A stretch of DNA of 21,202 nt from a virus: the IMG/VR virus record IMGVR_UViG_3300022927_000148, positions 1 through 21,202 of that record; one strand, 5' to 3'. The translations under genes and the position numbers were made by a program. This document shows, piece after piece, positions 1-19,495 of the stretch. Numbering within the stretch: position 1 is the first letter of the stretch; each line of letters starts with the position of its first letter. The notes under the pieces are model-generated. The model did no database searches, was not told where the DNA came from, and worked only from the letters and a program-made list of their open reading frames with translations.

Positions 1-1215
1 TAGTGTTGCGCCGTTAATACTGTAGTCATTTGTTGAGACTATCAGTCCATTTACGAACACTAAAACGCTGTGTACTGTGTGGTCTGCTTGACAAGTGAAG
101 TCGGTTGTACTACCGTCACCTGTGTATTCGTGACTTGTATAAACAAGATTGAGAGTATTATTTGTAACACTACCTGCTTGGAGTTGTGTAACTGTGGCGT
201 GTGCTGAACGATGTTTTATAATTACTTCGCCTCCTTGCGGAACAGCATCATTTAGTGTTAAAATATTATTTGAAACTGTATAGTTTTCTGTAACACCAGG
301 TACTTGTATAACAGCATCTACATATACATCTATTGATTCTGCGTCTGCTGGAGTACTAGCAAGTGTAAAACTACTTTGTGAACTAGCCGTTACCTGATAA
401 ACTTCTGTTGATGGTACTGTTCCATCAACTACGCTATCTGTAAAACTAAATCCACCACTACCGTCGGTAGTTAGAATTTGACCAGCAGAACCATCGCTGA
501 TTCCTAAATCAGTTAGTTCTTCTGGAACGTCTGTGATTTCAACTAATACAACACCACTTCCTTCGTCAGTAATCTGGAAACCATTTGTTGTATTAAATTT
601 AATAGTTGCTACGTTCGGAACATTTACATTTGGGCTATCGTTTACTTCTAATATACCCAAACCTTGTGTTGCAGCGGCACTTAATCCAAATGTTCCAGTG
701 TAAGTAGCACCACTTACATATACACTGTTACCTGTAAAACTTTTTCCGTTTGGTAGATTTTCACCAATAAAATGTAGTACGCCTGCTTGATAATCAAAGA
801 ACCATTCGTCATCGTTACCACTACCAGCAATAAACACCTGATTACTTAAACTACCTGCTCCGGCGGCATCACCAGCAGTGTGAATATAAACTTTAACTAG
901 GTATGTAGATCCAAATTCTGGTGGGATCCAATCACTTACACCAGTTTTCCAAGTTCTATTTGCTGTTGCTGTGCTATCAACAGTACATTCAACTGGCGTA
1001 CTTGTTGGATAAACTGTAACTGTACTAGAACTTGTGCTAGGCATAACGCCTGGAATAGTACTAGCATCTGCCAAAAGTTTATCAGCACGGAGTAAAAGTG
1101 GACTAACAATACTTTCGTTGGCGGCAAGTTTATTGGCATTAGTGTCAGTTTTAGCGACACCATAACCTAACTTTTTCCATAAGTAGTCAACTTTTTGGGT
1201 ATCTGAAACTGCCAT
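1..1215 (-). CDS. Virion structural protein, tail-fibre-like (C-terminus outside window)
   Basis: An open frame of 405 codons runs from an ATG at 1215 to the left edge with no stop, so the C-terminus lies outside the window. The start ATG overlaps the TAA of the upstream gene (TAATG), which indicates translational coupling. The N-terminal ~45 residues look helical (DYLWKKLGYGVAKTD). After that the protein is rich in Gly, Ser, Thr, Val and Asn and reads as beta-structured. The stretch GSAGQILTTDGSGGFSFTD around residues 245-265 is a motif seen widely in phage tail-fibre and fibre-attached proteins. Neighbouring genes are also structural. No catalytic motif is visible. I infer an exposed tail or fibre component; a baseplate-attached adaptor is possible. 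Confidence 0.72.
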   Translation of the reverse strand, partial: MAVSDTQKVDYLWKKLGYGVAKTDTNANKLAANESIVSPLLLRADKLLADASTIPGVMPSTSSSTVTVYPTSTPVECTVDSTATANRTWKTGVSDWIPPEFGSTYLVKVYIHTAGDAAGAGSLSNQVFIAGSGNDDEWFFDYQAGVLHFIGENLPNGKSFTGNSVYVSGATYTGTFGLSAAATQGLGILEVNDSPNVNVPNVATIKFNTTNGFQITDEGSGVVLVEITDVPEELTDLGISDGSAGQILTTDGSGGFSFTDSVVDGTVPSTEVYQVTASSQSSFTLASTPADAESIDVYVDAVIQVPGVTENYTVSNNILTLNDAVPQGGEVIIKHRSAHATVTQLQAGSVTNNTLNLVYTSHEYTGDGSTTDFTCQADHTVHSVLVFVNGLIVSTNDYSINGATL

Positions 1216-4200
1216 TAGCTCGCTGCTCCTACGCTAATTGAGTTGAGCGTTTGGAATCCGTCTAACCCTATACGAACCAGTACGACATTACCTGTTGCGT
1301 TACTCATGTTTTCACTACCTAGTGTTAGTGTATAACTGTTATTAATACTTGATCCTGTTGGAATAACATCAGCACCAGTTAAGGCGCAACCGTCACTACC
1401 GTTACCACCGCCGCTTGTGTTTGCTCCTGGTACGCCTACTCCCAAATACTGTGAGGTACCATCTATCCAACCATTTGCTCCGCTGGCTGTATCAACAGTA
1501 GTTCCCGGCGCGGCAATCCAAAGTCCAGCAATACCTGTGCTACTATTAATTGTTACATCAAAGTTAGCAACAACTTGTCTACGGAAAGCAAATGTATAAT
1601 ATTGTCTACCATTGTCACTACTTCTGTCTGGTCCTACTGGCAAATAACCTGTACTTAAATCTTCTGTGTAATGTGTTAGTGTACCTAAACGCACTGTTGC
1701 TTCTTGTGTTCCACTGACTGCTTCATTACCCTGCCACACATTGTTTGTATAGTAGTTTGTAGCACCGTTAAAACTAGGTGTATCAGTTGTCGCACTTAGG
1801 AAATCTGCTATACGCAAACCACTATCTGTATAAGTTCCGTTACCTAAACTACCGGAAACTGAAACTGTTGTATCGCTAAATCCTGTTGGGTTTGCTGTAT
1901 GAACTTGAATCTTAGGACCATTTAATTCAACATATCCACCTGTTCCGTTAACATTATACGCTCTAAATTTAATTGTTTCAATACCAATAACACTACTGCT
2001 TGTTAAACTAATGGTTTGATCGCCAATAGCATAAGGACTACTTACACCAACGTTAACGTTTGGAATACCACCTGTAAGCATACTACTTGTGCCATCAATA
2101 TCTGTATATGATTTATACTGTGTACTAACTGTGGCTCCGCTTGTGCTTTCGTAGTTTGTACCATTTGCTATTTCAAATACTTGTGTAGTATCTCTATATG
2201 CTTGTCCAGTTAAATTACTAATTGTAGCACCGCTTAATGTTAGTGTTGGGCTACCAGTATTGTAATAAGGAATACCGCTGATATATCTATATGTACCAGC
2301 ATTATTTTCTGTTAGTGTAGCACTACTTACATCAACTGTAGGTGTGCTTGTCATGTCATCATAAACTACTGTAACATAATTTGTGTTACCAGTTGAGGAA
2401 TGTTCTAATCTTTGATCGTTAACACCTACATTATAAGATGTTAAAGACTGTGTAATCTTTGCGTCAAATGTTTGATAAAATCCACTTGGGTAACTACTGC
2501 CTATTGTAGTATGAGCGTCACCTTGTCCACTTACAATTAAACTTGTAAATGTGCCGTTTTCATTAGTAGCAGTAGTAAATGTTTTGTTACCACTATCAAT
2601 ACCATTGATAATTGCTGTCAGTGTTCCACTTAAACCATCATAAACATTGTTAACTGTACTTGTGTCAATGGTGCCGCTAGTATAACGTCTAGCAGTAGTA
2701 GTTGTTAAACTATCTCCTGCGCTAAGTGGGTTAGTGTCACTATTATCTGTAAACCCTGCTGCCAGTTTTGGACTAGAACCTTGATAACTATCTGATAATG
2801 TTATAGATGCGCTACTTAATCCGCCAGGCGCACTAGGCACAGCATGTAATGTGAATGTTAAACTTTCGCTATCGCTTTGTGCTGTTAAATCTGGAGTTCC
2901 GCTTGCTGTAAGTTGAACTGTATAATTTTGTCCTGTAGCAATACCAGTAAAGTTATGGTCCAGTGTAGCACCTATTGTACCAGCACTACTGCCATCTTCT
3001 AAAATAATTGATGGGTTGCCATAAAAATCCCAAACATATTGATCAGCATTTTGTGAAGTGTTTGTAAATCTTGCTAGGGCTCTATTATTGCCGTTGTAAT
3101 CCGTACCAGCATACAAATCATATTGATTATCACCACTCTTGTCACTTACTGTAACTGCTGTACCTGCTAGGTTAGCACGAACATCTGGTTCAACATGAAC
3201 TGTAAAGTCAGATGTTACAAAAGGACTATTTCCGTGTGGGGTATTAAGTGTTAGTCTACCAGTATAATCCACTGCTGTTCCATTTGCTTGTTCTGTCGAT
3301 GTTAAAGAATATTTGTGTGTAATGCTTCTACCATGATCACCACTAGCATTTGTGCCAGCATTTACTGTTGATGTTGTTCCATCTCCCCATGTATAAACAT
3401 ATTGACTACCGTATGTAGCATAACTACCTACTGTTGTTTCTGTGTCGTTTGTAAATGTAACTGTTAACCCGTTATTGCTTTCTTCGTTAATACCAGTTGT
3501 AATATCAAGAGAAACTTCAGGAGTATGGTCATCATAAATTTTATATGTGTTATTATCACTTGTAGGTGTAGTACCAGGAGTTGCTGTATTATGACTATCT
3601 AAAGTAAGTGTTACTTGTCTTTGTAATTCTTGTTCAACACTTGCTGTAAATGTATGAGCGAGTCTACCACCGCCTACTCCACCAGCACTTGAATCACTAG
3701 TGATTACATCCGGTGTGCTTCCATCTCCCCATGCCCATGTATATTGAATTGTTGCTCCACTTGTATTTGTAGTTGTATTTTCAAAATAAATTGTATCACC
3801 ATCGTCCCATGATGTAATAGGACTTCCGCCTGTTGGTGAATCATAGGCATCAAAACTAACAACAGGAGTTGCTGTATAAATTGTAACATATCCAGTACGT
3901 TCTTTACTTGCCGTACTACCACTTCCAGTACCGCCATCATTAAATGCTTCTACACTGACATCAAAAGGACTTCCTGTATTAGTACTATATGTATGTGAAG
4001 GAGTTGTACTTGTTGTTGCTGTAGTGGTTGAACCATCACCCCAATCAATAGTATATCTATTTGGATTACCGGTTGATGAAATGTTTAGTGTAACTGCTAA
4101 ACCCGCACCTCCAACAAGTGGAGAACCTGTAAAATCTACGTCTTTAACAAATGTATTATTACGGATATTTTCGATTGTTTCGTTTAGATCATCAATCGCA

Positions 4201-4469
4201 TCTGTAATTGTTTGTTGTGAATCAAATCCCTGAAAAGCACCATCACCAAATGTTCCATCCACAGGTGTACCCAATGTTAGATTACCGCCACTACCTGATT
4301 GAGCATCAACGTATGCTTTAGTTGCTAAATCCTGAGCGTCGGTTGGATCACTAGCATTTTTAACTTGCTTGGTTGAAGCATCAATATTACCAGTAGTGCC
4401 AGCGTCTAATACTAAATCATTGTCATCTGCTTTGATTTTATTAGTAGCATGGTTAATGTTAATGGCCAA
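1215..4469 (-). CDS. Large virion structural protein with PKD-like repeats
   Basis: This 1084-aa protein has a fibre-type N-terminus: residues ~20-55 carry the pattern DAGTTGNIDAS...DPTDAQDLATKAYVD, typical of phage fibre stalk-attachment segments. Three clear PKD-type signatures follow (WGDGS at ~143 and ~247, WGDGT at ~361). A degenerate fourth (YVWDFYGN) lies near 527. The rest is Ser/Thr/Gly-rich and beta-like, with few Cys or Trp. PKD and related Ig-like folds in phage virions usually bind surfaces or glycans, so I infer an exposed adhesin-like tail or capsid decoration. The start is TTG at 4469, supported by AGAGGA at 4478-4483 on this strand, 8 nt upstream. A late promoter lies just before it. 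The stop overlaps the next start. Confidence 0.82.
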   Translation of the reverse strand: MAININHATNKIKADDNDLVLDAGTTGNIDASTKQVKNASDPTDAQDLATKAYVDAQSGSGGNLTLGTPVDGTFGDGAFQGFDSQQTITDAIDDLNETIENIRNNTFVKDVDFTGSPLVGGAGLAVTLNISSTGNPNRYTIDWGDGSTTTATTSTTPSHTYSTNTGSPFDVSVEAFNDGGTGSGSTASKERTGYVTIYTATPVVSFDAYDSPTGGSPITSWDDGDTIYFENTTTNTSGATIQYTWAWGDGSTPDVITSDSSAGGVGGGRLAHTFTASVEQELQRQVTLTLDSHNTATPGTTPTSDNNTYKIYDDHTPEVSLDITTGINEESNNGLTVTFTNDTETTVGSYATYGSQYVYTWGDGTTSTVNAGTNASGDHGRSITHKYSLTSTEQANGTAVDYTGRLTLNTPHGNSPFVTSDFTVHVEPDVRANLAGTAVTVSDKSGDNQYDLYAGTDYNGNNRALARFTNTSQNADQYVWDFYGNPSIILEDGSSAGTIGATLDHNFTGIATGQNYTVQLTASGTPDLTAQSDSESLTFTLHAVPSAPGGLSSASITLSDSYQGSSPKLAAGFTDNSDTNPLSAGDSLTTTTARRYTSGTIDTSTVNNVYDGLSGTLTAIINGIDSGNKTFTTATNENGTFTSLIVSGQGDAHTTIGSSYPSGFYQTFDAKITQSLTSYNVGVNDQRLEHSSTGNTNYVTVVYDDMTSTPTVDVSSATLTENNAGTYRYISGIPYYNTGSPTLTLSGATISNLTGQAYRDTTQVFEIANGTNYESTSGATVSTQYKSYTDIDGTSSMLTGGIPNVNVGVSSPYAIGDQTISLTSSSVIGIETIKFRAYNVNGTGGYVELNGPKIQVHTANPTGFSDTTVSVSGSLGNGTYTDSGLRIADFLSATTDTPSFNGATNYYTNNVWQGNEAVSGTQEATVRLGTLTHYTEDLSTGYLPVGPDRSSDNGRQYYTFAFRRQVVANFDVTINSSTGIAGLWIAAPGTTVDTASGANGWIDGTSQYLGVGVPGANTSGGGNGSDGCALTGADVIPTGSSINNSYTLTLGSENMSNATGNVVLVRIGLDGFQTLNSISVGAAS

Positions 4470-9161: not shown

Positions 9162-9368
9162 TTATTGTTCTGGTTGTGCTTGTCCTGCTCCACCATATTG
9201 TTGCTTATATTGTGCTACTTGCTCAATATGCTCTGCTTTGGACAATTCACGCATGTTTCTTAGTTTGTTCAAGTGTCTTAGTGTAAGTTTAGGACGTCTT
9301 GTATCATCTACTTCCCACTTGTTAAATTCATCGTCTTTTGCGTTTTGTGCTAATTCGCCAAATCTCAT
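9162..9368 (-). CDS. Small basic conserved protein after the portal gene
   Basis: The protein is 68 aa and basic in its middle (DDTRRPKLTLRHLNKLRNMRELSKAEH), predicted helical, with a Gln/Gly-rich end. Its ATG overlaps the portal stop (TAATG), so it is probably translated by coupling. Small proteins with an L-T-L-R-x-L-N-K-L-R-type core are known to me from the same place in marine T4-like phages, but I know of no assigned function. The position next to gp20 and the prohead-core genes suggests a role in prohead or neck assembly. It does not look like the acidic T4 gp67. Confidence 0.72.
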   Translation of the reverse strand: MRFGELAQNAKDDEFNKWEVDDTRRPKLTLRHLNKLRNMRELSKAEHIEQVAQYKQQYGGAGQAQPEQ

Positions 9369-11050
9369 TATTGTTCTCCTTGTCCTGTTCCTGGAATAGG
9401 ACTAGTTGCCCCACTAGTTGACTCTGCTCCTGCTGACGGATCTGCTCCAGCCATGTCTTCACCACCTGCTTCTTCTGGAGGTGCTGTTTCAGTTGGCTCA
9501 AAACCTTCAATGTCACCACTACGCAATCCTAGTGTACCCAAGCCACTCTTGCTTTCAAATTCAGGACTACTGTCGGTGTTTTCATCTCTCCACATTGCTT
9601 CGTTTTCCACAATCTCATCTTCACTAAGACCAAGATATTTCTTGAGTATAAAGCGTCTGCTAAGATAAGGAACGCCTTCAAGATTGCCAAACAACGCCGC
9701 TCTGCTGTTGTCAATTTCAATTTCTCTGTATTGACTAAAGCTCTGTGGCTCAATAAATTGTAAATCAAATAAACTACTAGGTACTTCGATTCCTCTAAAT
9801 TTAAGGAACAGTTTAAATTCTTTATCTAGTTCACTTAGTAGTATACGCTGTATTCTCTGACAATACTGACTAAAACGAAACTCCTGAATAAGAGCAGTAC
9901 CTACTCTACCATCTGTAAATGCGGCAGTTCCATCATCTGGGCCTGTTGGCAAGTAACTACTAGGTACTCGCAAACCACGCATTAATTTGTTGTTAAAGTA
10001 TTTTAAATCATCAATCTCACCAAGGTTGTTTCCACCTTGTAGTACGTCAACCTTACTACCACGTCCTTCACCTGTTTGAGCAAAAAAGTAGTCTTCCATA
10101 ATTGACAGTGGGTTATAAGCGGCATCCATGACGTTTGTGCCACCACCAGTTTTGTTTGGAATACGAGTTTGGTGTACTTCGTTTTTAACTCTTTCTACAA
10201 ATGCCATTGCTTTGTGTGCTGGCATGTTACCTACATCAATATAAAACACACGTCTTTCTGGCGCACGTTGTACACGGTAGATAATAATACTATCTTCTAG
10301 TAATTCTTTTTGTTTGTATACTTTGAAAACTGCTTCAAGAATACTGACACCAAAAGGCCAACTGGCTGTCATGCCATCAGTTAGAGCAATATGTATAACA
10401 TTACTAGCATCTACAGCATACTCACTATTTTGTGCGCTGTATCCGCCCTGGAAAACACCAGCACTCTTGCTAATAGGAGTAAGTGTACCACCAGGTCCAG
10501 CATTAACACCCATGTTGTTTAGTTTACGAGTGTCAGTTGTTACCAAATCTTTGAGATTAAGGTTAATATTTTTCATAATGTACTGATCAATTTCTTTACC
10601 AGTACTTTCGTTTACGATGGCTTTAGTAACGTCTTCTGGATTGACCCAGATAAGTTTATATGTTTCTGGATCTCGAATAAAAAACTGATCTCCGTATTTG
10701 ATAGCACTACGGAACATACCAAAAACACGTTTTTCAAAATCGTTAATATTACACCACTGACGCAAACCAGTTTCCAGTGCGTTAACTTCACTTTCAGTTG
10801 CGTCATCTTTAAAATGAATTTCAAACGGCAAACGTGTATCATTGTTTGTTTGTGTACTAAATTCAGCAATAGTATCGAGAGCAGTATTAATTTCACTGTC
10901 CATATCCATTTGATCATATTGCGTATATCTTTCAATACGATTTGGCTGGCCACTGTAAACTTCAGGTAGCCAACTTTGCCAACGATTGGCTTTAGCACGA
11001 GCACCAGTCGTTTCTCCGTCGTATCTTGTAAAATGTTTCTTCCAAGCCAT
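9368..11050 (-). CDS. gp20: Portal vertex protein (T4 gp20 family)
   Basis: Twelve copies of this protein form the portal ring where head assembly starts, where DNA enters and where the tail joins. The 560-aa protein is slightly longer than T4 gp20 (524). Family features in order: an N-terminal RYTQYDQMDMDSEINTALDTIAEFST block (~41-65), FEKRVFGMFRSAIKYGDQFF (~102), the RVQRAPERRVFYIDVGNMP block (~263-282), LPTGPDDGTAAFTDGRVGT (~372-391) and the C-terminal SRRFILKKYLGLSEDEI (~467). From ~500 a Glu/Gly/Ala/Ser/Pro-rich tail probably accounts for the extra length. It has its own late promoter, and its stop overlaps the next start. Confidence 0.97.
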   Translation of the reverse strand: MAWKKHFTRYDGETTGARAKANRWQSWLPEVYSGQPNRIERYTQYDQMDMDSEINTALDTIAEFSTQTNNDTRLPFEIHFKDDATESEVNALETGLRQWCNINDFEKRVFGMFRSAIKYGDQFFIRDPETYKLIWVNPEDVTKAIVNESTGKEIDQYIMKNINLNLKDLVTTDTRKLNNMGVNAGPGGTLTPISKSAGVFQGGYSAQNSEYAVDASNVIHIALTDGMTASWPFGVSILEAVFKVYKQKELLEDSIIIYRVQRAPERRVFYIDVGNMPAHKAMAFVERVKNEVHQTRIPNKTGGGTNVMDAAYNPLSIMEDYFFAQTGEGRGSKVDVLQGGNNLGEIDDLKYFNNKLMRGLRVPSSYLPTGPDDGTAAFTDGRVGTALIQEFRFSQYCQRIQRILLSELDKEFKLFLKFRGIEVPSSLFDLQFIEPQSFSQYREIEIDNSRAALFGNLEGVPYLSRRFILKKYLGLSEDEIVENEAMWRDENTDSSPEFESKSGLGTLGLRSGDIEGFEPTETAPPEEAGGEDMAGADPSAGAESTSGATSPIPGTGQGEQ

Positions 11051-11103: not shown

Positions 11104-13959
11104 TTATATATTTCCAGAGCTAAACATACGTCTGCGATCACGATTCGAATTTTCTATTCGCATTAGATCTCTGAGCTCTCTTAGTGATGTTAGCATACTT
11201 TCTTTAATTTGTCGAATGTTTTTTAGTTCTTCTTCAGTATCATTGCCTGATTCTTGAACCACGTCACCCTGAGTACTCATATCCTGCATCATCTGTATAG
11301 CATCAGCAAATTTTTCGAACTTAGAAGTAAATGCGTTAGCAAATTTATTGTCGACATTGCTAAAATCTAACTGTTCAATAAATTGAGGACCTGCTTCTGC
11401 CATCATTTGCTGTAACTCAGCAGACCCAAGATAACTTTCATTCAACGCTGTAGCATCAGCATAAGGAATAGCATTGTTTAGTGACTCAGTTGTTCCGCTA
11501 CGGGCGGCGGCAAACACACTGTTTAATCCACCAATACCTAGATCTTCAACTGCTTTTAAAATCTTGTCAGTGTCAGTAGCATTTAATATATAGCCAGATT
11601 CGGTTGGAACAAATATTTCGGCGCCTGCTTCACCAACAAGATAAGGTCTAGAACCAGTAACAGGTCCGCCAAATCTTCTGGCTTCTAACCATTTTTCTAT
11701 TACCCAATTTGGATAAGTGGTTCTCCACTTTTGAGCCTGCTCTGCTCCACCTTTCTTTGCTCTCTCCCACTGTTGATCTAAGAATTCAATCTGTGCTGGT
11801 AACATCGGGTCTTTAGGACTTATTGGCCTACCATCGATTAGAATAAAACTCGCTCCGCTAGACGCTTCATCACCAGGCTTGTAATTTGGATCATTTTTTG
11901 TTTTTTCATCAAATCTTGTTTGTTTATCGTCTAGTGCTTTTCTTAATTCAAAAAGTAATGATGATTCACCTTCTTGTTGTCTATATTCACCACCATCAAC
12001 ACCTAGCATCTCTAAGCCTTCACTATCAAACCCGGGTATAAGTCCTACAGTATTTCTCCATATTTTACCCATGACACCATCACCCATTATATCGTTAAAC
12101 ATGTCAGCAAATGGGCTTGTAATCTCTCTATAATATCCTTGAACATTATCAAAAAAACTATCGCTATCTTTAAGTCTGTCTGTTTCAAGTTGATCAAGAG
12201 TTAATGCCAGTTGTTGCCAATCTTCTTCATTAGCATTTCCCTGGGTCGCTTTTTTCATCAGTTTATCTATTTCGTCATCAGTGGTGTCGCCAATGAGGTT
12301 TTCGAAAAAATTCCTGTTAAACTGGTTATCTTCTTTATCAAAAGTTTCTTCCATCCAGTCTTTCATGTTACCCAAACTATCAGTGACGTCAGTTAATGCT
12401 TCGCCCATGTTGTCCATGTCTGGTAGTAATGCCGCTTGTGCTTTAAAGAACATTTCAGTGGCGTCATTTACTACTTTAACTGTTTTACCACTTTCTGCTA
12501 ATCCTCTGGCTGTTTCACTAGTGACTTTCTTGAACTCTGTGTCAGTCATTTCAGCACGTTTCTTTTCATTTTTTATTAAATTCAGTCGAGCAATTCGAAT
12601 TTCTTTACTGAATTGGAACACTTCGTCACCCACCTGGGCAGCAGATGAACCAAACTGTGACGGATCAGCGTTCATGATTGCTTTTCTGAACACGTTTCCT
12701 TGATCTGCTAGTTGTCCTGTTTGCACAGCCTTGTTAACTTTTCCAATCAAACCTGGTATTGTTTTTTCGACTTGAGATGTTAAACCAGTACTAATATTTG
12801 ACAATGCAGTGTCCAAATCAAATGTACTTGGATCATCAGCCGCTCTCATAGCAGCAGTAGTAAGTGCCTCAGTAAGTTTTTCGCCTAATGGGCCAAGACT
12901 TGGCGAAATATCAGCAAGTTCTGTTTGTAATGCTTTTAAAACGTCACCTTGATTCTTATAACCAGCATCATACAGACTGTCAATAGCACCAGCGACTTCA
13001 ACATCTGTAAGTTTTGACATTCTGCGTTTAATAATATCGTTACGATTTTCGCCAGTAACAGCAGCCAATGCTGATGTTTCCAACATAAGATCTGTAAATC
13101 CTTTTTTCAATTTATCTTGTGCGTCAACTGTTTGTGCGTTTACTGTACCTGTTAAACGCATAGCGTCAATATAACCAGCGTATGTTTCGGCCATTTGTGC
13201 GCTTTGCATACCCCAATCACCATACTGGTCACCTAGATCATTTAACTCACCAATCATTCTAGTAAAGTTGCTTGTGCCCTGACTGATGTTTGATCCTAAT
13301 GATTGGATAGCACCGCCATAATTGCTTACAATTTTACCTAAATCTTCATAAGCAAGACCAGCATCATAGGCGCCCATACGAAGTTCTTCAAAAGCACTTA
13401 GGTTAGTATACATAACAGCACCGCTGTCAATCATACTCTGTTGTACTTCGCTAAACTGTTCGAATTTACCAGCAGCAATACCTGCCCAGGTAGTAAATGC
13501 TACACCACCCTTTTTAGCAAGGTCGCCATATCTTGACATTCCTCCCATTGCGCCACTGAACTTTTCTCCCATGGCTTTGCTCATTTTAGGGAAGACAGCG
13601 CCAAACGCTCCTGGAAGATCTTGAGCTAAATTAACTGTACTACTAATAGGCTTTTGTGTATTGCTTAACTTGCCAAGGATACCAGAAAGACTTCTGGTTG
13701 CTTTTGTAATTCTATCGCCTATACTACGCTTTGCTATATTAGTAAGGCGTTCAGAAGCCTCACCAACACCTTTGGCTCTTGCCGCCGCAGCCTGAGCAGA
13801 ATTATCCATACTCATTACTTTACCAGTAATTTCTTCATAAAGGTCGTTGTTATGACTTAATGCTCTGCCGATATTACCCAGTGTGGTTTCAGTTGCCCAC
13901 TGGGGGACATTGGCTGCAATGTCAACACCGTTAATGTTAAGTTTCAAACTATCTGCCAT
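11104..13959 (-). CDS. Tape-measure-like tail protein, second of a tandem pair
   Basis: The protein is 951 aa. Near the C-terminus (~772-785) it has PYLVGEAGAEIFVP after RFGGPVTG, a signature often found in phage tape-measure proteins (GGxV...PxLVGExGpElfvP). The N-terminal half is Ala/Gly/Met-rich and helical, with a hydrophobic segment near 150-168. The C-terminal ~45 residues are a helical charged tail ending DRRRMFSSGNI. Tape-measure proteins set tail length and occupy the tail tube. Residues ~174-314 align by eye, in order, with ~169-309 of the preceding 1023-aa protein, so the two look like tandem paralogues. The start overlaps that gene by 11 nt, with only a weak ribosome site. T4 gp29 (590 aa) is much smaller, so this could also be a different tail component. 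Confidence 0.68.
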   Translation of the reverse strand: MADSLKLNINGVDIAANVPQWATETTLGNIGRALSHNNDLYEEITGKVMSMDNSAQAAAARAKGVGEASERLTNIAKRSIGDRITKATRSLSGILGKLSNTQKPISSTVNLAQDLPGAFGAVFPKMSKAMGEKFSGAMGGMSRYGDLAKKGGVAFTTWAGIAAGKFEQFSEVQQSMIDSGAVMYTNLSAFEELRMGAYDAGLAYEDLGKIVSNYGGAIQSLGSNISQGTSNFTRMIGELNDLGDQYGDWGMQSAQMAETYAGYIDAMRLTGTVNAQTVDAQDKLKKGFTDLMLETSALAAVTGENRNDIIKRRMSKLTDVEVAGAIDSLYDAGYKNQGDVLKALQTELADISPSLGPLGEKLTEALTTAAMRAADDPSTFDLDTALSNISTGLTSQVEKTIPGLIGKVNKAVQTGQLADQGNVFRKAIMNADPSQFGSSAAQVGDEVFQFSKEIRIARLNLIKNEKKRAEMTDTEFKKVTSETARGLAESGKTVKVVNDATEMFFKAQAALLPDMDNMGEALTDVTDSLGNMKDWMEETFDKEDNQFNRNFFENLIGDTTDDEIDKLMKKATQGNANEEDWQQLALTLDQLETDRLKDSDSFFDNVQGYYREITSPFADMFNDIMGDGVMGKIWRNTVGLIPGFDSEGLEMLGVDGGEYRQQEGESSLLFELRKALDDKQTRFDEKTKNDPNYKPGDEASSGASFILIDGRPISPKDPMLPAQIEFLDQQWERAKKGGAEQAQKWRTTYPNWVIEKWLEARRFGGPVTGSRPYLVGEAGAEIFVPTESGYILNATDTDKILKAVEDLGIGGLNSVFAAARSGTTESLNNAIPYADATALNESYLGSAELQQMMAEAGPQFIEQLDFSNVDNKFANAFTSKFEKFADAIQMMQDMSTQGDVVQESGNDTEEELKNIRQIKESMLTSLRELRDLMRIENSNRDRRRMFSSGNI

Positions 13960-16900
13960 AATTTACCGACTCTCTCTGGTTTGTCCTTCGCTGTGACTCA
14001 TTGATATCAGATATCAGGTATGCCATTTCTTCTTCTAATTGTGCTAGTGCACTATATATCTCTATTTTGCTATTTGATGTTGGTTCTCCATTTGCCAGAT
14101 TATCTAGATAACTACCAACTCCTGATTGTACTTCTCCTAGTTCAAAACTTCTAGGAATAAACATTTCTGGTCCACCACCGTCACCAACAATACCAGCCAT
14201 CATTGCTTCTATGTTTCCACCTAAAGCAAATGCTCCAATTTTTTTTCTTCTCTTTTCGAGTTCTTTTAATTCTTCAGGACTCATTTTTGCTTTTTTTGCT
14301 TCAAACTCTGCTTTGGCTTTTGCTCGACGTTGAGCAGCTAAATCTGGTCCACCATATCGTTTAATGGCTTGTTCAGCACGTTTAACTGAATCTTTCCACT
14401 TTCGTTTGGCCAGGCTTGAACTATTCATTGGCCCGTCTTTCAATGTTTCGTATCTCCACAAGGCTGCTTCTAATTCATTTTTAAACCCTTGATATCTTGT
14501 AACAAACCCTCCTGATTGTATATTAACTGATTTTACAATCTTGTCTGGTATCGGTATACTAACTTTAGTACCTTCAGGTTGTTGACTAACTTTTGGCTTA
14601 GCCTCTGGTTCTGGCGTTGGTTTCTTTTCAGTTTCTGGCAACTCTGTATCGTCACTGTTCCAGAAACTATTCCACCATTCTGAAAGTGTCTGAATAGGAT
14701 CAAAGTCCCATTCGCCTGTATCATCTGGTTCACTTGTTGGTGTTACAACATTTGGAATATCAGGTAAATTATTACCATTATAATTGCTACCAGTTTCAAT
14801 ATCTACAATTTCAGCATTACGTCTGGCTGTTACTGTTTCAGCAGTAACAGTATCAGTTTCTTCGCCGCCTGCTTTGTTTGCTCTGTCAATATCTGCCTGT
14901 CCAGCATCAGTTACTTCCCAGGAGAACGGAGCACCACCAAACCAATCGTAACCCCAACCTCTGTCATATTGTTGTGCTACAGTTTGTTTAACTATTTTTT
15001 CTCCGTCACTATCTTTTATTGTTAATATTTCTTTTCCATGTTTAGCGCCTTGATCTTCAATCTTATACAAGTCACCACGAACATTTTGATCTTTATATAC
15101 TTCTTCTTTGGCTTTGTCAAGCTCAGCCTTTGCTTCTCTGACTTTGGGATCATATTTACTTCTTGTATCTGCTATGTTACCTTTCACCTCAGCCATTTCA
15201 CTGTCAATCTTTTTAATTTCGTTTTGTATGTCTTTTTTCTTATCAGGATCAGTGATAGATTTCATTTTTTCCAATGCCATTGACTTTTGATTTGCTAACG
15301 CATTAAGATCCTTTTCAAAAGGTGCTAGTGCTTCTTTTCTGTCGTTGTACAAATCTTCATACACTTTAAATTGTTCTTTAGTTCTTTCAGTTAACTCATC
15401 TTTATTTGCTGATCCGCCTATTAGGGCATTCATACCCTTGCCCATCAGACTTAATCCAGTGTTAATTTTCTCAAAAGCAAAACTCATACCTTCAAAGCCA
15501 GGAAGTATTTTATGTTCAGTTTGTTTCATTCCCTTGGCAAAACTATCTACAACATCAACTGATTGATCAGCAATTTCAGTTGCTTCAGGTACTTTTGCCA
15601 TTCCAACTTTTAATTCTTGTTCAGTCATGTCCATGAATCCAGTTTTGCCTGCCTGTCTTGCCTGCATAATCATGGTGTTCACAGCTCTGGCCGCAGGATG
15701 ACCAGAATCAAATAGTTTAGCGCCAGCAATTGATTTATTAAACTTTTGCATTTCCATTACTAGATCTTGGCCAACAAGTTGTCCGCTAGTTGTTCCTTCC
15801 ATTATCTTAAAATAATGTTGGGCAATACCAGGGCCTAGCATATTAAGTCTCTCTACAAGTTCGCGGTTAGCATTGTTTACTGGGTCAGTATCTAGGTGTA
15901 AATCAGCAAGCGTACCAGTAAAGTTTTGAAGCATCATATCTCTCATCTCTGGACCCATGACTAACTCAGCCAGATAAGAGATTTCTCCTTGTGCTTGCAA
16001 GACATTATCTTTAGCGTTTGCTCCAAAACGTTCGGTAATAATTTCACCGTTACGTCTAAATGCTTCCTGGAAATCAACATCTTTTTGCGCCGCTTCTCTG
16101 AGTTTTAACATTTCTTTTCTAGTCATACCAGTTTTTCCGGCAAGGAATGTTGTCATTACACTGGACTCTGTAAATCTAGCGGCAATTTGTGCTTTTGCTC
16201 TGTCATCTAATGTTCTGACTTCACCAAAGCCATAAAGCATATCTGCTTCTTCTGCTAAACGGGCGGTTAATTCCTTGGTGCTGTACCCCATATCAGTTAT
16301 GCCCAGTCTACCTGATTCTACTTGAGCATTAAATCTTAAAAAGTCACTCGCACCTTTTAACGAATCCCCGCCAACATTTGCCAGCATTGCTTTGTGATTA
16401 TCAAGTATAGGCGACAGTTCAGCCATACTTTGTCCAACTTCAGCTGCTAACCCTCTTAACTGAGTCATATCATTGATATCAGTGGCAATTAGTCCAAATT
16501 CAATCATTGTTCTTAATTGCTTTTCTTGACTCATTAAATATGCTCCAGCGGCTGATCCGAGAGCAGAAGTTCCTAGTAAAAATTTACCACTAGTGTCTAG
16601 GACACCACTAACACTTTTCTTAAAACTACCAATGTCTTTGTCTTTCCAGCCAGCACCTGTTAACGCATCACTAATATTACCAAAAACACCGCCCATGGCT
16701 TTGACGCCTTCCATTAATCCTTCAATTGGATCATTGGCACGTTGCATACTCATAATATCACCGGCAGTATCATGCTGCATTGCGGCTGTTAATTTTCTGC
16801 CTTGTTCATGATAACTGGCAATTACTTCATCAAGATTTTCACTTAGTAAATCTAACCCAGCTGCTTCACGAATTTTGTTGGATTTTTGTGCTAGATTGGT

Positions 16901-17020
16901 GTAGATACTGCTCTGGCGTCTATAGATTCCCTCAGCCGTGGCTTCAGATGCCCACGTACTCTGACTATAAATCTGGGTGATAAGTTGTGCTATCTCATCT
17001 GGGTTTAATTCTTCTGCCAT
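13949..17020 (-). CDS. Tape-measure-like tail protein, first of a tandem pair
   Basis: The protein is 1023 aa. Near the C-terminus, FALGGNIEAMMAGIVGDGGGPEMFIPRS (~931-958) is a variant of the tape-measure signature GG...VGExGPElfiP. In front lies a Lys-rich linker (~890-930). A hydrophobic Gly/Ala-rich segment lies at ~137-165. A long charged coiled-coil-like region spans ~540-645 and a Pro/Glu/Asp/Thr-rich linker ~780-850. The C-terminal helix ends in an Arg/Asn-rich tail, like the neighbour's. Large size, helical character and location in a structural block fit a tape-measure or tail-interior protein. It is read from ATG (GCGATGGCAG) after a late-promoter-like element, and the following gene overlaps its end by 11 nt. 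The host or target interaction is unknown. Confidence 0.66.
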   Translation of the reverse strand: MAEELNPDEIAQLITQIYSQSTWASEATAEGIYRRQSSIYTNLAQKSNKIREAAGLDLLSENLDEVIASYHEQGRKLTAAMQHDTAGDIMSMQRANDPIEGLMEGVKAMGGVFGNISDALTGAGWKDKDIGSFKKSVSGVLDTSGKFLLGTSALGSAAGAYLMSQEKQLRTMIEFGLIATDINDMTQLRGLAAEVGQSMAELSPILDNHKAMLANVGGDSLKGASDFLRFNAQVESGRLGITDMGYSTKELTARLAEEADMLYGFGEVRTLDDRAKAQIAARFTESSVMTTFLAGKTGMTRKEMLKLREAAQKDVDFQEAFRRNGEIITERFGANAKDNVLQAQGEISYLAELVMGPEMRDMMLQNFTGTLADLHLDTDPVNNANRELVERLNMLGPGIAQHYFKIMEGTTSGQLVGQDLVMEMQKFNKSIAGAKLFDSGHPAARAVNTMIMQARQAGKTGFMDMTEQELKVGMAKVPEATEIADQSVDVVDSFAKGMKQTEHKILPGFEGMSFAFEKINTGLSLMGKGMNALIGGSANKDELTERTKEQFKVYEDLYNDRKEALAPFEKDLNALANQKSMALEKMKSITDPDKKKDIQNEIKKIDSEMAEVKGNIADTRSKYDPKVREAKAELDKAKEEVYKDQNVRGDLYKIEDQGAKHGKEILTIKDSDGEKIVKQTVAQQYDRGWGYDWFGGAPFSWEVTDAGQADIDRANKAGGEETDTVTAETVTARRNAEIVDIETGSNYNGNNLPDIPNVVTPTSEPDDTGEWDFDPIQTLSEWWNSFWNSDDTELPETEKKPTPEPEAKPKVSQQPEGTKVSIPIPDKIVKSVNIQSGGFVTRYQGFKNELEAALWRYETLKDGPMNSSSLAKRKWKDSVKRAEQAIKRYGGPDLAAQRRAKAKAEFEAKKAKMSPEELKELEKRRKKIGAFALGGNIEAMMAGIVGDGGGPEMFIPRSFELGEVQSGVGSYLDNLANGEPTSNSKIEIYSALAQLEEEMAYLISDINESQRRTNQRESVNYGR

Positions 17021-17073: not shown

Positions 17074-17081
17074 TATTTATT
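17074..17081 (-). promoter_or_regulatory. Probable late promoter of the tape-measure-like pair (AATAAATA)
   Basis: The minus strand reads AATAAATACA, seven of eight matches to TATAAATA plus the CA extension, about 54 nt before the ATG at 17020. With the plus-strand late promoter at 17046 it forms a compact back-to-back pair whose transcripts would overlap slightly at their 5' ends. Confidence 0.55.
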
Positions 17082-17082
17082 T

Positions 17083-17087
17083 GGAGA
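17083..17087 (+). promoter_or_regulatory. Ribosome binding site fixing the gp26-like start
   Basis: GGAGA lies 5 nt before the ATG at 17093. It overlaps the in-frame TTG at 17081, so the TTG cannot be the start and the protein begins MSQNPLIAAY. Confidence 0.75.
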
Positions 17088-17092
17088 ATCCC

Positions 17093-17929
17093 ATGAGTCA
17101 AAACCCATTAATTGCGGCTTATAAAAAGCCAGCATTATATGTCAGTCTCCCTAGCGGTGGAAAATACTATGAACCAAAGCCAAGATTAAGTGCTGATGGT
17201 GAACTGGCAGTATATCCAATGACAGCGAGGGACGAACTTATTACTAAAACGCCAGATGCGTTGTTTAACGGCGAAGCAACAATCAGTTTGTTGAATAGTT
17301 GCTGTCCGGACATTGAAAACCCTGCTCAAGTACCAGTTAGTGATTTAATGGTACTGATGCTTGCTATTAGACAGGCAAGTTATGGTCCAGAAATTGATGT
17401 TGATCTACAGTGTCCTGAGTGTAATCATATAAACAGCCTAACTATGTCAGCAACTAGATTGCTTGGAAGCATTCAGATAACAGAAGTTGACCCAATAGTT
17501 GCTCTTGATAATGGTTTCAAGGTTACTGTAAAACCATTTAATCTAACAGACAGAACTAAACTACAATTACAAGGCGTTAAACAACAGCGTATTGTAAGAG
17601 ATATGAGCAATTCTGATCTAAGTGATGAAGAACGAAACAAACGCTTTGGTCAGACATTTATTGAACTTGCTGAACTTACTATTTCACTTATCAGTAACTG
17701 TATTGTTAGCGTATCAGTACCAGATTCAGACGAATCATTTGAAGACAATGTAACTATTTTAGAGTGGTTACAGAGTATTAGCAAAAAAGATTACGATATG
17801 ATTAGAGAACGAGTAGAACAGATGAGTGAGGACGGTATGAATCGTGAGTTTGACGCTACTTGTGAAGATTGTAAGCATAAATGGAAAACAGATATCGAAT
17901 TGGATATCGCAAATTTTTTCGCAGGTTGA
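17093..17929 (+). CDS. Baseplate hub protein (T4 gp26-like)
   Basis: The protein is 278 aa from the ATG supported by GGAGA. The N-terminus (YKKPALYVSLPSGGKYY) and the block AVYPMTARDELITKTPDALFNGEA (~39-62) are characteristic of the T4-like baseplate hub family that includes gp26 (T4 gp26: 208 aa). Two CxxC knuckles, Cys107/Cys110 (CPECNH) and Cys257/Cys260 (CEDCKH), are 147 residues apart and look like a zinc-ribbon pair closing an inserted helical region. In T4, gp26 is needed for hub assembly together with gp51. Here the gene is the first of a plus-strand pair behind a late promoter, divergent from two tape-measure-like genes. Acting with them as an assembly partner is inference. Confidence 0.78.
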   Translation: MSQNPLIAAYKKPALYVSLPSGGKYYEPKPRLSADGELAVYPMTARDELITKTPDALFNGEATISLLNSCCPDIENPAQVPVSDLMVLMLAIRQASYGPEIDVDLQCPECNHINSLTMSATRLLGSIQITEVDPIVALDNGFKVTVKPFNLTDRTKLQLQGVKQQRIVRDMSNSDLSDEERNKRFGQTFIELAELTISLISNCIVSVSVPDSDESFEDNVTILEWLQSISKKDYDMIRERVEQMSEDGMNREFDATCEDCKHKWKTDIELDIANFFAG

Positions 17930-18147
17930 TCGCCACTAGTCAACCGCACGAGACTGAACAAATTGTGGAGAGGTACAACAAAGGCCTCGAAGACGCAGAA
18001 GCAACATACATGGATATAATGTTATATAGTGGCGGTGCTATTAGTTATCAGGACCTGATGACTATGCCACTACCATCTGTGACTATATTGATTAAACAAA
18101 TGAATGCCCGAACAGAAAGACAAACTTCCGCCAGCAAAAAACGCTAA
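17881..18147 (+). CDS. Small partner of the gp26-like gene (possible gp51/hub-assembly role)
   Basis: From ATG at 17881 this is 88 aa, overlapping the gp26-like gene by 49 nt. An in-frame TTG at 17926 overlaps the gp26-like stop as TTGA and would give 73 aa (MIATSQPHETEQIVERY...). Neither start has a strong ribosome site, and TTGA coupling makes the shorter form plausible. The conserved-looking part, YMDIMLYSGGAISYQDLMTMPLPSVTILIKQMNARTE, is a short helical domain whose L..GG...L..MP...I..LI pattern resembles small tail-assembly chaperones. In T4 the gene after 26 is 51, a hub-assembly factor of 249 aa, so homology is uncertain. The end overlaps the opposing gene by 4 nt. Confidence 0.7.
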   Translation: MENRYRIGYRKFFRRLIATSQPHETEQIVERYNKGLEDAEATYMDIMLYSGGAISYQDLMTMPLPSVTILIKQMNARTERQTSASKKR

Positions 18148-19075: not shown

Positions 19076-19495
19076 TCAGCCCTCTTTTAGAATATGCGAG
19101 CCGTGTACTTTGATTTGAATTATGCCGTTATAATATTCTTTTGTTTCAAGAACTTTTCTTTCAAATTGTTCTCTTGCTTCTATATAACTACATTCTGCCT
19201 TTGATTTGCCGTAATATAATATTTCTCGGGTAAATTTGTCTGTGCCTAGTTCTTCTACGTCAGCCTTTAATTCGTCGTTTGATCCCCAATAATCGCGCCA
19301 ATCTGATTCTACTGTATAACGTCTTTTTCTAGTTTTGCCTTTAAGTGGTGGTCTTGATCTTTTAAAACGAGCCAGTTTTTTGCCTATATATTTTCTGCCA
19401 TTAGTAGTATTCGTGATTAGATATACGAACCCAGTACAATCTTCTGGAAGTTCTGTTACAAGTTCGCCTTCATACGTCCAATCGCTATTATTCAT
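19076..19495 (-). CDS. SegE-like GIY-YIG endonuclease
   Basis: The protein is 139 aa. The GIY-YIG domain begins at ~21 with TGFVYLITNTTNGRKYIGKK, where FVY (23-25) replaces GIY and YIG (36-38) is intact. A basic stretch (ARFKRSRPPLKGKTRKRR, 42-59), DWRDYWGSN (65-73) and a helix with a likely metal-binding Glu at ~106 (SYIEAREQF) follow. This layout matches the small phage SegE-like family, free-standing homing-type nucleases of T4-like phages. It is longer than a bare nuclease domain but has no obvious separate DNA-binding module. The ATG overlaps the previous gene by 8 nt. It may spread itself into related genomes, or may be a repair or recombination nuclease; activity is unproven. Confidence 0.85.
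   Translation of the reverse strand: MNNSDWTYEGELVTELPEDCTGFVYLITNTTNGRKYIGKKLARFKRSRPPLKGKTRKRRYTVESDWRDYWGSNDELKADVEELGTDKFTREILYYGKSKAECSYIEAREQFERKVLETKEYYNGIIQIKVHGSHILKEG

Follow-up and report, generated by a model that had tools for sequence, protein, structure and literature searches.

The window analysed here is a 21.2-kb record of an uncultivated virus (21,202 nt), representing a fragment of its genome. The phage is T4-like, with gp23, gp21, gp20 and gp26 recognised by profile and scaffold-type and gp46-like genes present as well, and its nearest named relatives are the jumbo T4-like phage PA5oct (portal identity 54%), Sinorhizobium phage Phosso, Atu_ph07 and CBB. Two long genes, A and B, are located on the minus strand between a divergently oriented gene of the gp26 family and the portal gene. 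Paralogue A, the gp26-proximal copy, occupies positions 13949-17020 and encodes 1023 aa, while paralogue B, the portal-proximal copy, occupies 11104-13959 and encodes 951 aa; both ORFs are found as the preliminary description gave them, and they overlap by 11 nt (13949-13959, minus strand). The portal protein gp20 is encoded directly downstream of B on the same strand (9368-11050; phrog_213, E=2e-112). On the plus strand, divergent from A, lies the gp26-family gene (17081-17929; PF12322, phrog_150), a putative tail-assembly chaperone whose short form has 282 aa. Each of the two long proteins begins with an N-terminal block, residues 1-530 of A (15431-17020, minus strand) and residues 1-540 of B (12340-13959, minus strand), and each carries a motif towards its C-terminus: VGDGGGPEMFIP at residues 945-956 of A (14153-14188, minus strand) and VGEAGAEIFVP at residues 775-785 of B (11605-11637, minus strand), the latter being common to annotated tape measures.

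Two other genes of the window are recorded here as separate observations. A 1084-aa protein (1215-4469, minus strand) contains repeats that by eye resemble PKD/Ig-type domains (WGDGS...), for which a Pfam search gave nothing above threshold; contig G006 has a comparable ORF of 1047 aa (60511-63654) whose N-terminal start is the same. A SegE-type GIY-YIG homing endonuclease gene (19076-19495, minus strand; PF19835, E=3e-35) lies near the gp46-like gene.

The preliminary description held that A and B align by eye in their N-terminal halves without reordering. BLASTP bears this out with a collinear alignment of about 535 aa at 22% identity (48.9 bits, E=1e-9), compared with at most 30.8 bits in 600 shuffles (global or by block) and 24.3 bits for reversed A. 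The comparison of profiles built from six orthologues per family (A has orthologues in L001, L002, L005, L006, L007 and others) gave an hhalign probability of 99.6% (E=6.9e-25 over 495 columns), while the T4 gp29 family, which serves here as the negative control, gave E values of 0.08-0.25 and probabilities below 1%. Judged by these alignments, A and B are true paralogues. We also considered that they might be the two halves of one broken gene and rejected this possibility, since an N-terminal block is present in both and both are kept as clades. The C-terminal signatures described earlier are present in both proteins, and motifs of this tape-measure type also occur in relatives L001, L002, L076 and L077; for the motif of B, alignments to proteins annotated as tape measures in Vibrio phages reach E values of 5e-5. 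The motif class is also found in 2.6% of shuffled sequences, and by itself it would be modest evidence for a tape measure. The AlphaFold models of A and B are almost all helix, at low confidence (pLDDT 52.6 and 44.5), and a long helix is predicted to end both of them, in keeping with the similar C-terminal helix noticed before. A lacks an N-terminal strand segment that B shares with the single-copy genes of relatives.

The adjoining gp26-family gene matches PF12322 with 77 bits, against a cut-off of 24.5. Its end contains the slippery sequence AAATTTTTTC (17911-17920, plus strand), in which the heptamers A AAT TTT and T TTT TTC are in phase, and an extension in the -1 frame (17914-18147, plus strand) that would yield the long form, of about 355 aa. 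Among relatives, 82 of the 82 distinct ends of this gene had a phased -1 slippery site with a -1-frame extension, compared with 2 of 936 control ORFs; in named phages, the gene is annotated only as a plain short gene. We therefore predict a short and an extended form produced through the -1 slippery site, as in the G/GT chaperone arrangement of phage lambda, where a slippery site ending the short ORF gives a C-terminally extended product (PMC5009743). The T4 proteins gp26 and gp51, listed as hub assembly chaperones (PMC3004832), are encoded by two separate genes, unlike the single gene with a slippery site found here. Both match phrog_150 (T4, L084 5803-7229), gp51 over its full length and with the additional C-terminal family phrog_634, so that the short and long chaperone forms of T4 look like duplicated genes and not like one frameshifted gene. 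In Atu_ph07, gp26 was not found within the stretch examined, and a 500-aa amidoligase-like gene stands in its place beside the tape-measure-like gene (L082 9824-11326, minus strand). According to PMC10885494, which cites Vladimirov et al. 2022, the chaperone assignment in T4-like phages has already been published. Given that assignment, the frameshift signature, which first looked new, is not claimed as new and is used as support only. Frameshifting was reportedly described by Vladimirov and colleagues in other T4-like groups too.

Most relatives with both flanks visible have a single long ORF, of about 600-1400 aa, between gp26 and the portal gene. PA5oct and CBB, both jumbo phages, belong to this one-gene type, and the genes CBB_251 (phrog_14121), EST35_0148 of PA5oct and AUZ94979 of Atu_ph07, which occupy the same slot upstream of the portal gene, are homologous to A and B by profile. 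Those of PA5oct and CBB have a divergent gp26-family gene alongside, as A and B do. These phages have one gene, annotated only as structural or hypothetical, whereas the slot of one clade is filled by A and B as a pair or by A1, A2 and B as a triplet (36 clusters at 85% identity). The relatives were reached by IMG/VR scans with the portal protein and with an alignment of B, the latter raising the set to 36 clusters; scans with a single A or B protein found nothing, and the alignment of A had no stretch conserved enough to serve as a query. By tblastn, the A-family proteins had no match among named phages, so that an A gene was undetectable in any of them, and all pair-bearing phages are uncultured and known as contigs, several of them fragmentary. 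At the A/B junctions of relatives, the genes usually overlap by 1, 4, 8 or 11 nt or lie close to 0 nt apart. Triplets are found in L099, L117 and L122-L124, with A1, A2 and B in tandem and of similar length (L122 2677-10475, L117 2462-10571, L099 4882-12703).

In the phylogenetic tree, all A proteins, including A1 and A2, form one clade with support of 100/100, and all B proteins form another with support of 100/99. The grouping of A with B is supported at 100/96 against chosen single-copy outgroups and more weakly, at 85/76, in a wider set. The A2 proteins of the triplets are an extra early branch of A, while A1 groups with the ordinary A. B is closer than A to the single-copy genes of relatives, and the stem branch is longer for A (1.48) than for B (0.63). 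As read from this topology, the pair is shown to descend from one tandem duplication at the base of the pair-bearing clade; and since each copy forms a single clade across orthologues that are only 20-33% identical, both copies appear to have been retained for a long time. Another tandem pair, of 809 and 920 aa with Peptidase_M15 on the second copy, occurs elsewhere in the tree (L072 4790-9985), which suggests that duplication occurred more than once; a later loss is the alternative for this case, since the single-copy L075 adjoins one of the L072 copies in the tree.

The tape-measure character proposed in the preliminary description is well supported, though indirectly, while a descent from the tape measure of T4 is not: the hhalign values against gp29 given above, together with the lack of any phrog_1283 match, led us to reject the identification of A or B with gp29. 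The portal-adjacent protein is nevertheless most likely a tape measure, as judged from several lines of evidence: the adjoining gp26 gene with its conserved slippery site in the lambda G/GT arrangement, the lack of a gp29 homologue in the relatives searched, the wall hydrolases in the C-terminal half of several members, and the presence of a single-copy homologue in virions. A further line is that Foldseek searches with the model of B, a low-confidence one, matched many tape-measure and minor tail proteins at low TM-scores; against the PDB, the same model had no match below 0.001. A separate gp29-type tape measure was looked for in PA5oct, Atu_ph07, CBB and 12 large contigs and none was found, whereas that of T4 was detected; reading through the ORFs of one 221-kb contig showed no large helix-rich ORF other than A and B among its structural genes. 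Virions of PA5oct contain the single-copy homologue, as do those of CBB, with 29 peptides and 50% coverage (PMC5259590); one peptide of the portal-adjacent gp231c was detected in phAPEC6 (PMC7247149). A point against the portal-adjacent gene is that in Atu_ph07 another gene, gp701, is named the tape measure (PMC6102473).

We also considered the phrog_11190 protein beside the hub lysozyme gene of PA5oct and CBB as another candidate tape measure and thought it less likely, since a protein of this family in G006 has a lysozyme-like domain fused to it and lies near baseplate genes. A fusion of a lysozyme-like domain with a phrog_11190-type structural protein is recorded at L180 4638-7058 (minus strand), and in PA5oct and CBB the phrog_11190 protein is a separate gene adjoining the hub lysozyme gene; the fusion and the neighbouring lysozyme gene together suggest a hub protein.

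The location beside the portal gene would also suit head-internal or ejection proteins, comparable to the T7 core proteins or to an inner body, and lytic transglycosylase domains occur on some T7-type ejection proteins. The PHROGs class of the CBB homologue, head and packaging, speaks for such proteins and against the tape-measure reading, and an inner body is present in the head of the related phage phAPEC6 (PMC7247149). We regard this explanation as improbable, since it leaves aside the adjoining gp26 chaperone with its conserved frameshift site, the tape-measure-type C-terminal motif in A, B and the four relatives named above, and the failure to find any other tape-measure candidate in relatives. 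The short forms of the proteins, of 636-723 aa, also speak against it, since their span of about 95-108 nm, taking 1.5 A per residue, would fit a T4-size tail; by comparison, the CBB homologue has 722 aa and the CBB tail measures 123 nm including collar and baseplate (PMC5259590).

The total lengths of A and B are correlated across the 36 clusters (r=0.94) and are nearly equal within each phage. When each protein is split at the end of the conserved block, the N-terminal block is nearly constant across the clade, with 515-536 aa in A and 536-552 aa in B, while the C-terminal part ranges between 116 and 728 aa (A) or 110 and 612 aa (B), again with r=0.94 between the two. In 34 phylogenetic contrasts on a FastTree tree with midpoint root, the correlation was 0.84 for the C-terminal parts (permutation p<1e-4) and 0.07 for the N-terminal blocks; many contrasts are near zero, so the value of 0.84 rests mainly on several shifts between short and long forms. 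L115, a cut contig whose lengths match the triplet L117, was excluded from the statistics on both parts. This combination of N-terminal blocks of constant length with C-terminal parts that vary several-fold in step appears to be new. Instead of contact between the chains, a common selective pressure or recombination of the whole block could underlie the co-variation. The near-equal lengths of A and B within each phage are the opposite of what two length classes would need and, together with overlapping or abutting genes that favour coupled expression, make it very improbable that A and B serve as alternative rulers giving one phage two tail types or lengths, even if either chain alone would suffice in length for a normal-sized tail.

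Wall hydrolases were recognised in the C-terminal half of several members. In the triplet of L122, VanY is found on A1 (2e-22) and SLT on A2 (2e-8), with no recognised enzyme on B; GH19 is present on A in L163 and L167; M15 is found in the second copy of L072 and in L079, and a VgrG3-like C domain in L059. The matches are stronger on A in L122, L163, L167 and L125, and hydrolase-type matches below the Pfam cut-off are found on B too, in L006 and in L163, where it is a weak VanY match. Profile searches recognised no hydrolase on the window's own A and B. A C-terminal stretch of A in L006 is lysozyme-like by eye but had no match among solved structures, and we claim no enzyme for it. The bias of the enzymes towards A, its longer stem branch, its missing N-terminal strand segment and the closeness of B to the single-copy genes would agree with a division of labour, in which B alone is still the tape measure, while A, no longer part of the ruler, now serves as an ejected or tail-interior protein (a lysin, a membrane channel or a DNA conduit). 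We consider this unlikely, although less so than the explanations above, because the N-terminal block of A is as rigid as that of B and its C-terminal part tracks that of B, neither of which a freely ejected protein needs, and the enzyme-type matches extend to B.

The preliminary description had left the choice between a hetero-oligomeric ruler and a copy turned into another ejected protein. The evidence favours joint use, given the constant N-terminal block, the co-varying lengths, the adjacent or overlapping genes and the long joint retention, with a degree of specialisation added to it, as indicated by the longer A stem and by hydrolases that sit on single copies; the two options are not fully separable. 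Our main reading, to which we assign a probability of roughly 0.6, is that A and B form a hetero-oligomeric tape measure of ancient duplication, handled by gp26, that occupies one tail lumen and splits its cargo between the chains. A and B would have arisen when the tape-measure gene of the phage was duplicated in tandem long ago, and the gp26 chaperone, in its short and its -1-frameshifted long form, would handle both chains. These would fill the lumen of the same tail as mixed strands of one bundle, with the N-terminal blocks of constant length running parallel and in register and the length-matched C-terminal parts lying towards the tip, the end at which single paralogues of some lineages bear a cell-wall hydrolase. 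Upon ejection the enzymes would be delivered, and one tail could thus bring more than one wall-cutting activity. More tentatively, and at somewhat less than even odds, the tape measures of the whole clade may be obligate heteromers, each built from two or three paralogues that have a common ruler block and split the wall-penetration enzymes, and that arose as tandem duplication took the locus from one gene to three.

Compared with known systems, A and B would share with T4 gp29 (phrog_1283) the proposed role, a long and predicted mainly helical fold, and gp26-family chaperones encoded nearby, and they differ from it in having no detectable sequence relation, another gene position and more than a single copy. 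The hydrolase-bearing proteins of these phages resemble P1 Sit and phiCbK gp95, which are long and helical and have their enzyme in the C-terminal half (PMC9024508, PMC3556154), with the difference that there a single protein does this, while in some phages of the clade the enzymes are spread over the paralogues.

In the open-access literature we found no report of paralogous tape measures, nor one that names the portal-adjacent structural gene of RaK2-like jumbo phages as a tape measure; our analysis proposes this identity for that unnamed protein. Phage tails are usually described as having a one-gene ruler, with the length of the gene setting that of the tail. If the heteromeric ruler is true, one chain could carry, for example, a peptide cutter and another a glycan cutter, and two or three co-evolving paralogues would offer a natural experiment that distinguishes the measuring part, the block of 515-552 aa, from the free cargo of 110-728 aa.
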